Positions 21,668 through 26,626 of a stretch of DNA of 40,803 nucleotides are shown here, one piece after another (within the stretch, counting starts at the first letter, position 1; each line of letters starts with the position of its first letter). The stretch is from the NCBI GenBank assembly GCA_902554335.1, contig CACDOD010000010.1, positions 1 through 40,803 on the forward strand, given 5' to 3'. The DNA is from an uncultured Pelagibacteraceae bacterium. Its GTDB lineage: Bacteria > Pseudomonadota > Alphaproteobacteria > Pelagibacterales > Pelagibacteraceae. The translations under genes and the position numbers were made by a program. The notes below the pieces were generated by a model, which saw only the letters and a program-made list of their open reading frames with translations, made no database searches and was not told the DNA's origin.

Positions 21668-22577
21668 TTCTAACAAAAGCACTTGCAAAAACCTCTGAGT
21701 CAAAAATTTCTAAGTCATCTTCTTTTTCGCCTAAACCAAGAGCAACAATAGGAATTTTAAATTTTTTTGCAGTAGCAATAAGAATTCCACCTTTTGCAGT
21801 ACCATCTAATTTAGTCATTATTAAACCCGTTAAAGGAATAATTTTATTAAATTCTTCGACTTGATTAATTACATTTTGTCCGGATGTAGCATCTAAAACT
21901 AACAGAACCTCATGTGGCCCAGTATCATCAAACTTTTTAATTACTTTCGCTATTTTCTTATACTCCTCCATAAGATTTTTTTTATTCTGAAGTCTACCAG
22001 CAGTATCGATTATAACTTGGCTATAATTATTCTTTTTCGCCTCATCTAAAGATTTAAATGCTACGGAAGCTGGGTCTGAACCAGGTTCAGATTTAACTAT
22101 TCCTACATTTATTTTATTTGCCCACTGCTCTAGTTGATCGATAGCTGCCGCTCTAAATGTATCACAGGCAGAAAATAATACTTTACTATTATTTTCTCTA
22201 AATCTTTTTCCAATTTTACCTATGGATGTTGTTTTGCCTACTCCGTTAACTCCAGATACTAAAATTATATTTAGTTTATGTTGAGCATCAAAAAAATCTT
22301 TTCTTTCTAAGGGTTGCATTAAACTCAGAATATATTGTTTTAATAAATGATTAACTTCTTCTATTATATCTTTAGAAGGATCAATTTTTTTTTGTGATAT
22401 AATATCTTTTATATCACTAGCAGCATCCACACCTACGTCTGAAGAAATTAAAAAGTCTTCTATTTTATTAAGAGTTTGATCATCTATCTCTTTTTTAAGA
22501 ATTATTTCTTTTAATCCGGTAGTTAAATTTGAAGCACTCTTTTGAAATCCAATTTTAAACTTTTCAAAAATACCCAT
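21660..22577 (-). CDS. ftsY: Signal recognition particle receptor FtsY
   Basis: 305 residues. This is the SRP receptor GTPase that docks the SRP-ribosome complex to the inner membrane. G1 is GVNGVGKTTS (109-118), DTAGRLQNKKN starts at 191 and TKLDGTAKGG at 255. The protein consists almost entirely of the NG domain: the long acidic N-terminal A domain of enteric FtsY is missing, and a short N-terminal helix (MGIFEKFKIGFQKSASNL) remains as membrane-contact region, as in other reduced FtsY proteins. It starts one base inside the dapF stop (TAATG), so the two genes are coupled. Its partner ffh lies just across the divergent intergenic region. The 3' end overlaps a convergent gene by 8 bases. Confidence 0.97.
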   Translation of the reverse strand: MGIFEKFKIGFQKSASNLTTGLKEIILKKEIDDQTLNKIEDFLISSDVGVDAASDIKDIISQKKIDPSKDIIEEVNHLLKQYILSLMQPLERKDFFDAQHKLNIILVSGVNGVGKTTSIGKIGKRFRENNSKVLFSACDTFRAAAIDQLEQWANKINVGIVKSEPGSDPASVAFKSLDEAKKNNYSQVIIDTAGRLQNKKNLMEEYKKIAKVIKKFDDTGPHEVLLVLDATSGQNVINQVEEFNKIIPLTGLIMTKLDGTAKGGILIATAKKFKIPIVALGLGEKEDDLEIFDSEVFASAFVRTN

Positions 22578-23401
22578 TATAATTTTATTTTAATCTTCTC
22601 TATACTTGAAACTGGTCCTTTCATAAAAATAGAATTATCATTTCCTATTCTTATCGATAAAATTCCTGTAGAAAATTTTATATCAACATAATTGGAAACT
22701 TTATTTGTTATAAAACCCGCATAAGCGGTTGCACATGCTGCTGTCCCACAAGCCTTTGTCAATCCTGCACCTCGTTCCCAAACTTTAACACTAATCAAGT
22801 TTTCATTTTTAATTGTTGCTATAGTTACATTGCATTTTTCTGGAAAATATTCATGTTGCTCAATTACAGGCCCTATATTTTCTATCTCGTAATTATTATT
22901 ATTTTCTACAAAAAAGATTATATGGGGATTACCAACGTTAATTGCGATACCACCAGTAAATTTTTTTTTGTTAATATCATTAATAGTTATATTTAAGTTT
23001 TTAGTGTTCATTTCTTTAATTAAAGGAATTTTATCCCACTCCATAGAAGGTATACCTATATTAGTTTCAACTAAATTTTCTTTTAGTATCAATGAATGTA
23101 AGTTTCCAGACGATGTCTCTAAATTTATTTCTTCTTTTCCATATTCTTTTGATAAAAGTTTAGCTACACATCTTGTACCGTTCCCACATGCACCAGAAAT
23201 ACTTCCATCAGAATTATAGAAAATAAGTTTATCTCGATTATCATTATTTTTGTTAATATAAATTAACTGATCACAGCCAATAAAATCTCTACTACAAATT
23301 TTTATTATATTTTCTTTAGTTAAATTTACAGCTTTCACTCTTTGATCAATGATTACGAAATCATTTCCTAAGCCATCCATTTTAAATGCATTAAATTCCA
23401 T
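22577..23401 (-). CDS. dapF: Diaminopimelate epimerase
   Basis: 274 residues, standard length. DapF converts LL- to meso-diaminopimelate in the lysine and peptidoglycan pathways in the cytoplasm. The two active-site cysteines are visible in ACGNGTRC (Cys72) and KACGTAAC (Cys218), and the N-terminal FKMDGLGNDFVIID is the family start. Many alphaproteobacteria have a MiaB-like methylthiotransferase gene between dapF and ftsY; here it is absent and the two genes overlap by one base. The promoter is probably the TATAAT on the minus strand at 23449-23444. Confidence 0.97.
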   Translation of the reverse strand: MEFNAFKMDGLGNDFVIIDQRVKAVNLTKENIIKICSRDFIGCDQLIYINKNNDNRDKLIFYNSDGSISGACGNGTRCVAKLLSKEYGKEEINLETSSGNLHSLILKENLVETNIGIPSMEWDKIPLIKEMNTKNLNITINDINKKKFTGGIAINVGNPHIIFFVENNNNYEIENIGPVIEQHEYFPEKCNVTIATIKNENLISVKVWERGAGLTKACGTAACATAYAGFITNKVSNYVDIKFSTGILSIRIGNDNSIFMKGPVSSIEKIKIKL

Positions 23402-23422
23402 ATATTTTAATGTTTATCTTAT

Positions 23423-23451
23423 TTGTTGACATTTTGAACCTCTATTATAGT
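23423..23451 (+). promoter_or_regulatory. Candidate promoter of ffh leader/ffh
   Basis: TTGTTG (23423-23428), a 17-base spacer and TATAGT (23446-23451) predict transcription from about 23458, just upstream of the first leader hairpin. In such AT-rich DNA this is suggestive rather than firm. Confidence 0.4.
23444..23449 (-). promoter_or_regulatory. Candidate -10 element for dapF-ftsY
   Basis: The minus strand reads TATAAT, a perfect -10 hexamer, giving a leader of about 36 bases before the dapF ATG at 23401. No good -35 was found. It overlaps the plus-strand -10 candidate, so the two promoters may compete. Confidence 0.4.
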
Positions 23452-23463
23452 TTATCGCAATTT

Positions 23464-23539
23464 CCGCAAATACAGCATTTTGCGGTGTCTTTGGTAACAA
23501 AGAGATCGACACCAGTCAGCGAGGGTTCGCCCACTGGTG
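23464..23539 (+). ncRNA. Structured leader RNA upstream of ffh (candidate)
   Basis: Three consecutive hairpins lie in the dapF-ffh intergenic region. The first is CCGCAAA (23464-23470) with TTTGCGG (23479-23485). The second is TCTTTG (23488-23493) with CAAAGA (23498-23503), closed by a GNRA-type loop GTAA. The third is CACCAGT (23510-23516) with ACTGGTG (23533-23539), extended by a 2x2 internal loop and GCGA (23519-23522) with TCGC (23527-23530). The segment is visibly more GC-rich than its surroundings. It lacks the conserved domain IV of 4.5S SRP RNA. The ffh ATG is 21 bases after the third stem, so either a cis-acting leader or a small RNA is possible. I cannot name the family. Confidence 0.5.
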
Positions 23540-23560
23540 CTATAGCTGTTGGGTAAAATT

Positions 23561-24919
23561 ATGTTTGAAAACTTAACAAATAAATTTGAAGAAATATTTT
23601 CTTCTTTAAAGAGGGCACCTTCGTTGAATGAAGCCCAAGTAGATGAGGGTTTGAGAGGAATTAGACAAGCTTTGTTAGAAGCAGACGTTTCTTTGGATGT
23701 AGCTAAAGACTTCGTAGATAAAGTTAAACCAAAAGCCCTTGGAAAAGAAATAGTTAGATCAACATCTCCAGGACAGATGGTTGTAAAAATTGTTTATGAT
23801 GAATTAGTAAATTTTCTAGGAGAAAAAAATTCAGAAGTTAATCTGAATGCAGTTCCACCCGTTACAGTTATGATGGTTGGTCTCCAAGGATCTGGAAAAA
23901 CAACTTCGACAGCTAAGCTTGCTACATATTTAGAAAAAAATAAGAAAAAAAAGGTTATGATGGCCAGTTTAGATATATACAGACCGGCTGCTCAAGAACA
24001 ATTAAGACTTCTTGGAGAACAAAATAATATCAATACGCTCCCGGTAATTGAAGGACAATTGCCCACCGATATTTGCCAAAGAGCAATTAACGCAGCAAAA
24101 CTAAATGGCAGTGATGTAATTTTATTTGATACCGCAGGGAGAACACAAATAGATTTACAAATGATGAGTGAGATAAAGCAAATTGAGAGCATAATTAATC
24201 CTTCAGAAGTAATGTTAGTGGCAGACTCACTTACAGGACAAGTTGCTGCGAATGTAGCGAAAGAATTCAAAAATACAGTTAACTTGACAGGAATTATTTT
24301 AACTAGATCAGATGGTGATGGAAGAGGTGGTGCAGCTTTAAGCATGAAATACGTTGCAGAAGTCCCTATAAAATTTTTAGGGGTTGGAGAAAAAATTGAA
24401 AATCTGGAAGCTTTCCATCCAGATCGTATAGCAAATAGAATATTAGGGATGGGAGATATAGTATCTTTAGTAGAAAAAGCCACAGAAGATCTTGATCAAG
24501 AAAATGTTAGAAAAGCAGAGGAGAATTTAAGAAAAGGACAATTCACCCTTGAAGATTATTTATCGCAACTACGTCAAATGAAAAAAATGGGAGGGATTGA
24601 AGGCGTAATGTCTTTCTTGCCAGGTGTTTCAAAAATGAAATCTCAAATGGATCAAGCTGGCATTGATGAAAAAATAATTTCTAAAAATGAGGCAGTAATT
24701 TTATCTATGACTAAAAAAGAAAGAGCTAATCCCAAAATTATTGATGGCTCTAGAAAAAAAAGAATTGCTAATGGCTCAGGAACTGACATTGCCACTATCA
24801 ATAAACTGTTAAAACAATTCAAAATGATGTCTGAAATGATGAAGAAGATGTCAAAAGGGAATATGAAAGGAATGGCGGATAAAGGAATTCCACCTGAACT
24901 TTTTAATCAACTTAAATAA
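23561..24919 (+). CDS. ffh: Signal recognition particle protein Ffh
   Basis: 452 residues. Ffh binds signal sequences and 4.5S RNA and targets ribosomes to FtsY. The N-terminal N domain is followed by G1 GLQGSGKTTSTAKLA (107-121), DTAGR (about 190) and TRSDGDGRGGAALSM (about 248). The C-terminal M domain is Met-rich (QFKMMSEMMKKMSKGNMKGM). I prefer the ATG at 23561 (MFENLTNKFEEIF, the normal Ffh start) to a TTG four codons upstream. The preceding region carries three hairpins that may control expression. rpsP follows 14 bases later. Confidence 0.97.
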   Translation: MFENLTNKFEEIFSSLKRAPSLNEAQVDEGLRGIRQALLEADVSLDVAKDFVDKVKPKALGKEIVRSTSPGQMVVKIVYDELVNFLGEKNSEVNLNAVPPVTVMMVGLQGSGKTTSTAKLATYLEKNKKKKVMMASLDIYRPAAQEQLRLLGEQNNINTLPVIEGQLPTDICQRAINAAKLNGSDVILFDTAGRTQIDLQMMSEIKQIESIINPSEVMLVADSLTGQVAANVAKEFKNTVNLTGIILTRSDGDGRGGAALSMKYVAEVPIKFLGVGEKIENLEAFHPDRIANRILGMGDIVSLVEKATEDLDQENVRKAEENLRKGQFTLEDYLSQLRQMKKMGGIEGVMSFLPGVSKMKSQMDQAGIDEKIISKNEAVILSMTKKERANPKIIDGSRKKRIANGSGTDIATINKLLKQFKMMSEMMKKMSKGNMKGMADKGIPPELFNQLK

Positions 24920-24933
24920 AAGGAGAATAAAAT

Positions 24934-25338
24934 ATGTTAAAACTAAGGTTATCAAGAGGAGGAACAAAAAAAAGACCTGTATATAAAATCGTTGTTGCAG
25001 AAAGTAGATTTGCAAGAGACGGTAGATTTATAGAAAAATTAGGTTTTTTTAATCCTCTACTTCCAAAAGAAAAAAAAGAAAGAATAGGTTTGGAAAGTGA
25101 AAGAATAAAATATTGGTTAAGTCAAGGAGCACAACCAACAACTAGAGTTGCTAGAATTTTAGGTGAAAATAATTTTATTCCTATGCCAAAGTCTGGAAAT
25201 AATCCAAATAAGGCTATCCCTAAAAAAGAAAGAAATAAAGAAGCAGAAGCTCCAAAGGAAGAAGCTAAACCAGCAGCAGAAGCTCCAAAGGAAGAAGCTA
25301 AACCAGCAGCAGAAGCTCCAAAGGAAGAAGCTAAATAA
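24934..25338 (+). CDS. rpsP: 30S ribosomal protein S16 with repeat-bearing C-terminal tail
   Basis: 134 residues, against about 80-90 for most S16 proteins. The core (about 1-84) is standard, starting MLKLRLSRGGTKKRPVYKIV and containing SRFARDGRFIEKLGFFNP. From about 86 a Lys/Glu/Ala-rich tail begins, and residues about 105-134 are nearly three copies of an 11-residue unit (EAPKEEAKPAA), the last ending at EEAK. A Shine-Dalgarno AAAGGAGAA lies about 7 bases before ATG. In most bacteria rimM follows rpsP; here trmD follows directly after 12 bases. Confidence 0.96.
   Translation: MLKLRLSRGGTKKRPVYKIVVAESRFARDGRFIEKLGFFNPLLPKEKKERIGLESERIKYWLSQGAQPTTRVARILGENNFIPMPKSGNNPNKAIPKKERNKEAEAPKEEAKPAAEAPKEEAKPAAEAPKEEAK
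25246..25335 (+). repeat. 33-bp tandem repeat inside rpsP, 2.7 copies
   Basis: Two identical 33-base units (25246-25278 and 25279-25311), each beginning GAAGCTCCAAAGGAAGAAGC, are followed by 24 bases of a third (25312-25335) that abuts the stop codon. The unit length keeps the frame and encodes EAPKEEAKPAA. Exact identity suggests recent duplication, and copy number may vary between strains. Confidence 0.93.
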
Positions 25339-25350
25339 AAAGTAGTACAA

Positions 25351-26040
25351 ATGCTCAAAGTCAAAATATTTACACTTTATCCTGAATTTTTTCCTGGTCC
25401 TTTTGATAAAGGTATTTATGGAAATGCACTTGAAAAAAAAATTTGGGAATTGAAAATTGTAAATATAAGAGACTTTGCAAAAGATAAACACAAAACAGTC
25501 GATGACACGCCTTATGGAGGTGGCTCTGGAATGGTAATGAGAGCTGATGTAGTTGCGAGTTCCTTAGATAAAAATTTGGAGTCTAAAGAGAAAGTATATT
25601 ATTTAAGTCCAAGAGGAAGACTTTTAAACCAAGAGATTGCAAAAAAAATTTCAAAAGAGAAATCTTTAAATATTTTATGTGGTCATTTTGAAGGTGTTGA
25701 CCAAAGAGTCCTAGATAATCGCAATATTGAAGAGATTAGTATTGGTGATTATGTAATTTCTGGTGGAGAAACCGCTTCCTATATTGTTCTTGATAGTGTG
25801 CTAAGATTAATCCCTGGAGTATTAGGAAATGAAGCTTCAATAGTAGATGAAAGCTTTGAAAATGGACTTTTAGAATATCCTCAATATACCAAACCTCAAA
25901 TTTGGCAGGAAAATAAGGTTCCAGAGGTTTTATTATCAGGTGATCATGCTAAAATTAAACACTGGCGTTTATCTCAATCTGAGGCTATAACACGCGACCG
26001 AAGACCAGATTTGTGGCAAAAACATAACAAAAAAAATTAG
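25351..26040 (+). CDS. trmD: tRNA (guanine-N1)-methyltransferase TrmD
   Basis: 229 residues. TrmD makes m1G37 in tRNAs and prevents frameshifting. The SPOUT knot shows as [16 protein letters not shown] (about 90), [14 protein letters not shown] (about 110), [14 protein letters not shown] (about 130-143) and the C-terminal YTKPQIWQ. It starts 12 bases after rpsP and precedes rplS by 4 bases, in the ordinary ribosomal-protein operon order except that rimM is missing. Confidence 0.96.
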
Positions 26041-26044
26041 TAAA

Positions 26045-26626
26045 ATGAAAAATATAGAAGAAATAAATAATTCAAAAGTAAAACAAATTATTGCACAAAA
26101 GAAACATCCAGAATTCTTTCCTGGAGATATTATTAAAGTTGGAGTTAAAATAACAGAAGGTAAAAGAGATAGAATTCAATACTTTGAGGGTGTTTGTATT
26201 GCAAAAAAAAATAGAGATATAAACTCTTCTTTTACAGTTAGAAAAATTTCTTTCGGTGAAGGCGTTGAAAGAACATTTGCACTTTATAGTACAGCTGTTG
26301 ATACAATTAAAGTTATTAGATCAGGAAAAGTAAGAAGAGCTAAACTATATTATTTAAGAGAGAGAACAGGTAAATCTGCAAGGATTTCAGAAAAAATAAA
26401 AAAGAAAATTGGAATTGATTTAGAAACAAAAATTCAAGAGGTTAAAGAAGAGAATTTAGCTGCTCCAATTGTGGAAGAGATTAAAAAAGAAAAAACAAAA
26501 TCTTTAGAGGCTCCAAAAGTAGATGCAAAACTAAAAACTGATTCTTCAAAAGTAGAGGTAAAGAAAGAAGAAGCTAAGCCTCAAAATAAAACTGAGCTTA
26601 AGAAAGAAGAAGAGTCTAAAAAATAA
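26045..26626 (+). CDS. rplS: 50S ribosomal protein L19 with Lys/Glu-rich C-terminal tail
   Basis: 193 residues, against about 115-130 for typical L19. The core (about 1-120) includes [33 protein letters not shown] and the terminal [18 protein letters not shown]. From about 130 the chain is a low-complexity Lys/Glu/Ala tail (about 60 residues) with units [10 protein letters not shown] and [11 protein letters not shown], resembling the EAPKEEAKP units of S16 two genes upstream. L19 sits at the 30S-50S interface. It ends 22 bases before leuC. Confidence 0.96.

Follow-up and report, generated by a model that had tools for sequence, protein, structure and literature searches.

A catalogued leader RNA ahead of ffh in SAR11 and other Alphaproteobacteria, more likely to control ribosomal protein S16 than Ffh

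The genes dapF and ffh are separated by a gap of 159 bases (23402-23560) in the 40,803-nt stretch of DNA analysed here, referred to as the window. Its source is a Pelagibacteraceae genome of the SAR11 type that is 70% complete, in 46 contigs. The length of the gap is as given in a preliminary description of the locus, and a 159-base gap is also found for HTCC1062 in a table of Meyer et al. (PMC2704228). By Pfam, the gene order in the window is ftsY-dapF-ffh-rpsP-trmD-rplS. The rimM gene is absent between rpsP and trmD (25338-25351). It is also missing from this position in a genome of another family, here called f41 (locus L164, 2004-2231), and is present there in locus L175 of the same family. 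The C-terminal tail of S16 is long, repetitive and rich in Ala/Glu/Lys or Ala/Pro in the window (25200-25338) as well as in f41 (L175, 6300-6477; L112, 1022-1280). The features of the locus are listed in Table 1. The local rise in GC content that had been pointed out earlier is present, with 0.49 at 23458-23547 versus 0.38 in the gap and 0.32 in the window.

Table 1. Genes, promoter and RNA features around the dapF-ffh gap (positions in the window)
Feature	Position	Strand	Basis and remarks
dapF	22577-23401	-	Pfam
Putative promoter	23426-23453	+	Sequence; TTGACA 23426-23431, 16-nt spacer, TAGTTT 23448-23453
P1, CCGCAAA...UUUGCGG	23464-23485	+	7-bp inverted repeat; weak support
P2, GUAA loop	23483-23508	+	Fold and covariation; G·G mismatch in stem
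RF01793 (ffh sRNA) match	23495-23547	+	57 bits, full model; gathering score 35
P3, conserved core	23510-23539	+	Covariation; 7 bp, CA/CC internal loop, 4 bp
ffh	23561-24919	+	Pfam SRP54, SRP_SPB, SRP54_N; first gene of the unit
rpsP (ribosomal protein S16)	24934-25338	+	PF00886; proposed source of the ligand
trmD	25351-26040	+	PF01746
rplS (ribosomal protein L19)	26045-26626	+	PF01245

The hairpins ahead of ffh are an already catalogued leader RNA. RF01793 is the sole Rfam match over the cut-off in the window, and the marks of this family, a bulged hairpin with a covarying stem and a conserved bulge ahead of ffh, are all present. In the available text of Meyer et al. 2009 (PMC2704228), the motif of 'Cand. 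P. ubique' is a lone hairpin with a bulge, and regulation of ffh is given as its possible role. A Mesorhizobium paper mentions it in passing among small or leader RNAs (PMC5596092, text seen in part), and a Bartonella paper does so as 'ffH leader RNA' (PMC7717549, likewise in part). A later functional study of RF01793 or the ffh motif was not found in the open-licence literature. What is new beyond the Rfam record is the architecture of the element, its range and its likely target.

Three neatly spaced hairpins had been described for the gap. Three inverted repeats are indeed found, and two of them, P2 and P3, fold; P1 and P2 are not separate, as the triplet CGG at 23483-23485 is common to P1 and the base of P2. 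The hairpin with the GTAA tetraloop (P2) was recovered as described. It ends one base 5' of P3 and is left unpaired by the Rfam model. Both P2 and P3 are present in 3/3 folds, with probabilities of 0.98-1.0 at the tested pairs. The first hairpin of the preliminary description exists as an inverted repeat. The best fold lacks it both for the whole gap and for 23460-23560, the likely transcript. The pair probability of P1 is 0.02 in 23460-23560 versus 0.99 in 23460-23545. In the best fold of the longer segment, the P1 loop ACAGC pairs with GCUGU just before ffh. By eye, the register of this pairing varies among SAR11 sequences, and the pairing is absent in a second family. Depending on the transcribed length, P1 competes with both the base of P2 and the ACAGC-GCUGU pairing in the predicted folds, a possible two-state switch in SAR11. 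Another possible switch, in which GGUGUC would take part together with the 5' strand of P3, was noted by eye and in SAR11 only.

The plus strand of the gap folds at -41.6 kcal/mol (shuffled mean -31.8, z -2.59), and 4 of 200 shuffles were as good; the minus strand has a z of -3.64. Pairing of UUCC with GGAA and of CCGCCCA with UGGGCGG in some loci prompted a search for a helix that encloses the element, formed by the 5' end of the leader and the stretch after P3. As a general feature this helix was rejected, since the longest-stem test did not exceed the controls (p<0.05 in 7/90 against the 3' segments of other loci and in 4/90 against shuffles). P1 as a terminator was rejected as well: the one terminator-like match in 23380-23620, after P1, is followed by a broken U run. 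No terminator-like site was found after P3 in this interval.

Covariation of P3 was assessed in 62 leaders, obtained from 130 parsed leaders by thinning at 82% identity. Changes on both sides occur in 11 of 12 pairs, and 93.8% of cells are paired compared with 26-47% when the arms are slid. Among 500 shuffles, none reaches the observed value on four of five measures and seven do so on the fifth. All 46 unpaired cells fall on the position beside the mismatch. These 62 leaders served to build a covariance model (R1). Of 94 additional loci searched with R1, 84 match at E<=0.01. One of the 84 (L203) is identical to a row of the model, and no other is >=95% alike. Both-sided changes are found in 10 of 12 P3 pairs of these matches, in an alignment that is itself fitted to the model.

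The inner part of P3 had been described as a symmetric 2x2 internal loop. This is correct for the window, where a C·C mismatch (23517/23532) is followed by A·C. In the 84 model-aligned matches, the mismatch is C·C in 80 and U·C in 4, and the position beside it is A·C in 57, C-G in 13, G-C in 10, G·U in 2, A-U in 1 and U·U in 1. From these base counts, the apparent 2x2 loop of the window is better read as a C·C mismatch that hardly varies and, beside it, a variable position with frequent pairing in other lineages. The hairpin parser gave C·C in 78/78, a count biased by the preference of the parser for C·C and pairing.

P2 has a mean stem score of 17.6 versus 12.3 in shuffles among 78 class-wide upstream regions (thinned to 80% identity), and p<0.05 is reached in 30 of the 78, with about 4 expected. 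Both-sided changes affect 4 of 10 P2 pairs in 37 Pelagibacterales sequences. It is seemingly missing in some lineages, judging from partial model matches (L305, L313, L316, L320). For P1, 95.1% of cells are paired in the Pelagibacterales alignment, with a both-sided change in 1 of 5 pairs. RNAalifold recovered P2 and P3 from the Pelagibacterales alignment and not P1. By these comparisons, covariation appears strong for P3, good for P2 and weak for P1. The covariation that had been named as the check on the hairpins is present, in P3 in 62 and 84 sequences and also in P2, and the earlier view that a structure retained here is functional agrees with a conserved, covarying leader of the ffh transcription unit.

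In 88 of 90 non-redundant upstream regions, a TTGAC box is found 55-135 nt ahead of P3, compared with 8.8% (572/6500) of random 84-nt windows from the same, mostly coding, loci. A consensus promoter scanner did not list the site in the window, the second hexamer of which is weak. From the promoter sequence, the leader transcript probably starts near 23459-23461. Taken together with the gene order, the element is best read as the 5' leader of a (ffh)-rpsP-(rimM)-trmD-rplS unit behind a conserved promoter box. The end of P3 and the ffh AUG are 21 nt apart in the window and 17-126 nt apart in 119 loci, one of them with 292 nt. Plain blocking of the start site therefore cannot apply to all loci.

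The element is widespread in Alphaproteobacteria. RF01793 matches were obtained in 81 of 101 relatives and, in a search that scored part of the first-look candidates, in at least 112 of 387 genomes of the class at E<=0.001, at least 86 of them over the cut-off. From genomes of the class that had given no such match, 20 stretches ahead of rpsP were also analysed. A direct Rfam scan of the 20 gave no RF01793 match over the cut-off. R1 found the element in 12 of them at E<=2e-5 (L302, L303, L305-L309, L313, L316, L319-L321) and in L315 at 0.013; the remaining 7 had no match below E 1. RF01793 hence under-detects the element family. The element is recovered by R1 at E<=0.0065 in 75 of 80 named alphaproteobacterial rpsP loci; this sample is uneven, as similarity to a single S16 was the basis of selection. 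The five negative loci are L187 and L188, with ffh, and L201, L221 and L234, where the stretch is without ffh.

The ffh gene is found in 134 of 139 fetched loci, and all five exceptions belong to f41. In the 119 parsed loci outside f41, ffh starts within 500 nt after P3. Downstream rpsP on the same strand was found in 83 of 84 class loci checked out of the 112 (50 matched by eye, 34 new); the remaining one, in G106, is cut off by the end of its contig. Five of these loci have 1.9-3.7 kb of sequence separating ffh from rpsP. By eye, about 2-6 GNAT-like acetyltransferase ORFs are located between the two genes in L277-L281, L217, L219 and L249. Several such loci also contain a chorismate-mutase-like ORF, and the inserted ORFs are co-directional and often overlap.

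Seventeen loci were selected for having no L19 match within 6 kb. Native queries, used in a repeat search, likewise located no L19 within 6 kb downstream, and trmD was not found in 7 of the 17; such translated searches for L19 and trmD may miss diverged genes. The element is present in all 17. Of the products of the unit, S16 is the one with its gene located downstream in every case that could be checked.

Family f41 appears to separate the element from the SRP. Its record names refer to the OCS116 cluster and the PS1 clade (L175-L177), which are marine groups, and its 18 genomes are G139, G245, G326, G394, G456 and G487-G499, with L175, L112 and L088 among the loci. The ffh family TIGR00959 was found in 0 of 5 f41 genomes. 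The SRP54 GTPase domain PF00448, which is matched by both Ffh and FtsY of the window, was found over the cut-off in 0 of 18 f41 genomes, six of them >=90% complete, and in 14 of 14 control genomes. The only match below the cut-off (G489) lies in an ORF that reads as adenylylsulfate-kinase-like. With the Ffh of the window as query at E<=10, weak matches were obtained in 7 of the 18 (best 0.0067); the two that were read by eye resemble a transhydrogenase subunit and a P-loop kinase. An order-wide search at a completeness of >=85 gave 0/6, all six genomes being f41 members, with no sister families. No 4.5S RNA match was obtained in 18/18 f41 genomes, with a model that also misses some SAR11 genomes: it locates the gene elsewhere in 76 of 101 relatives at E<=0.001 and has no match in the incomplete genome of the window itself.

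The element is present in 14 of these 18 genomes, and rpsP starts 26-33 nt after the Rfam match in 14/14 copies. The order in L175 is mtaB-dapF-[element]-rpsP-rimM-trmD-rplS (mtaB by eye), so that, relative to the window, mtaB takes the place of ftsY and rpsP the place of ffh. Among 12 distinct f41 sequences of the element, 132/132 cells are paired and two pairs show compensatory changes; 5-7 pairs of P2 are retained, also with base changes. On these searches, f41 appears to have lost the whole SRP, i.e. Ffh, FtsY and 4.5S RNA. The count of 0/18 suggests that the loss of Ffh precedes the family, in which case selection on the hairpins would have continued without Ffh.

Ffh binds RNA, which had made it an attractive ligand in the preliminary description. 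Its gene is present in 134 of 139 loci and starts no more than 500 nt beyond P3 in the 119 parsed ones outside f41, and where extra genes have enlarged the unit, the element stays before ffh. Both the preliminary description and Meyer et al. suggested autorepression of ffh, with Ffh or the SRP bound to the leader. This autoregulation now seems improbable, as the element is not confined to genomes with Ffh: f41 retains it, with compensatory changes, in 14/18 genomes, with SRP54 in 0/18 and 4.5S RNA in 0/18 and without detectable FtsY. The leader is not the 4.5S RNA either, as had been stated from the start. No RF00169 match was found in 23380-23600 at E up to 10, and the motif is without likeness to 4.5S RNA also in the available text of Meyer et al. 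(PMC2704228). Resemblance to the segment of 4.5S RNA that Ffh binds was considered by eye and was not supported. The leader more likely controls S16 than Ffh, because the apparently SRP-less lineage keeps the element directly before rpsP. This separation of S16 from Ffh comes from one lineage, since the checked loci outside f41 have ffh in between.

The ligand of a similar leader could instead be L19, TrmD or RimM, which are also products of the unit, since the ligand of a multigene ribosomal leader is often not the product of the first gene (PMC7247131, text seen in part). The genes rplS and trmD are linked to the element in L175 and the window, and this linkage in f41 too counts against specificity for S16. 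Such a ligand is nevertheless unlikely given the 17 element loci in which L19 was not found, seven of them also without a trmD match, and the absence of rimM from the operon of the window. About as doubtful is an element that sets mRNA stability, processing or transcription without an operon-encoded ligand. The widely varying distances to the start codon would be in line with this, and a single core hairpin with a mismatch could suit a nuclease or a general factor; the near-invariant C·C within covarying stems fits a specific recognition site better, and a single type of operon was found to be headed by the element. An independent small RNA that acts in trans is implied by the Rfam type 'Gene; sRNA' and by the listing among small or leader RNAs in Mesorhizobium (PMC5596092) and Bartonella (PMC7717549), as far as these texts were available. 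This is very improbable in view of the missing terminator-like site after P3 in the window, the spacing of just 21 nt between P3 and ffh, and the same operon being headed by the element in nearly all loci seen.

The preferred reading is that the element is an autoregulatory leader of S16, with a probability of roughly 0.6; binding of S16 is itself inferred. The element heads a unit with S16 in 83 of 84 loci and stays with rpsP where ffh is not detected, in 14/14 f41 copies. S16 in excess of free 16S rRNA would bind P3/P2. Bound S16 would lower translation of the first gene and then expression of the operon by coupling or decay, and ffh would be regulated as a passenger. With P3 ending 21 nt before the ffh AUG, a bound protein could hinder the ribosome in the window. 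In SAR11, P1 and the ACAGC-GCUGU pairing may provide two alternative folds. There is about an even chance that a wider statement holds, in which the autogenous control so far missing for the S16 (trmD) operon of Alphaproteobacteria is exerted through the 'ffh motif' and recognition relies on the C·C mismatch. The motif would then have outlived loss of the whole SRP in the OCS116/PS1-named clade and would now head rpsP there without a gene in between.

In the available text of a review, the regulation of this operon is given as unknown (PMC10931766). With a leader this widespread, and a ligand that can be tested, the question would become directly approachable, and synthesis of the SRP protein and of ribosomes would be seen to be tied in one control unit. 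A bacterial clade without SRP, as f41 may be, also bears on how essential co-translational targeting is.

A candidate S16 leader of Flavobacteria was reportedly proposed by Eckert and Weinberg in 2020. This candidate likewise lies before rpsP, which is followed by rimM, and S16 is its proposed ligand (PMC7247131, text seen in part). It belongs to another phylum, and the comparison with the element described here concerns gene context. The similarity to 4.5S/SRP RNA (RF00169) is limited to a functional link to Ffh, with no sequence match. Autogenous ribosomal protein leaders are structured 5' UTRs of ribosomal protein operons, as is the present element. Unlike these leaders in general, it usually has an SRP gene in first place, and rRNA mimicry was not found: a loose stem scan of the leader against three 16S genes, run with no control, gave scattered matches only. 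The motif was reported as absent from Caulobacterales and Rhodospirillales in the available text of Meyer et al. 2009 (PMC2704228), whereas a record named as Caulobacterales (L250) scores 30 bits here. The element of the window agrees with the RF01793 ffh motif in its hairpin, its position and the gene that follows; to that description the present analysis adds P2, the C·C core, the wider range and S16 as a likely target.
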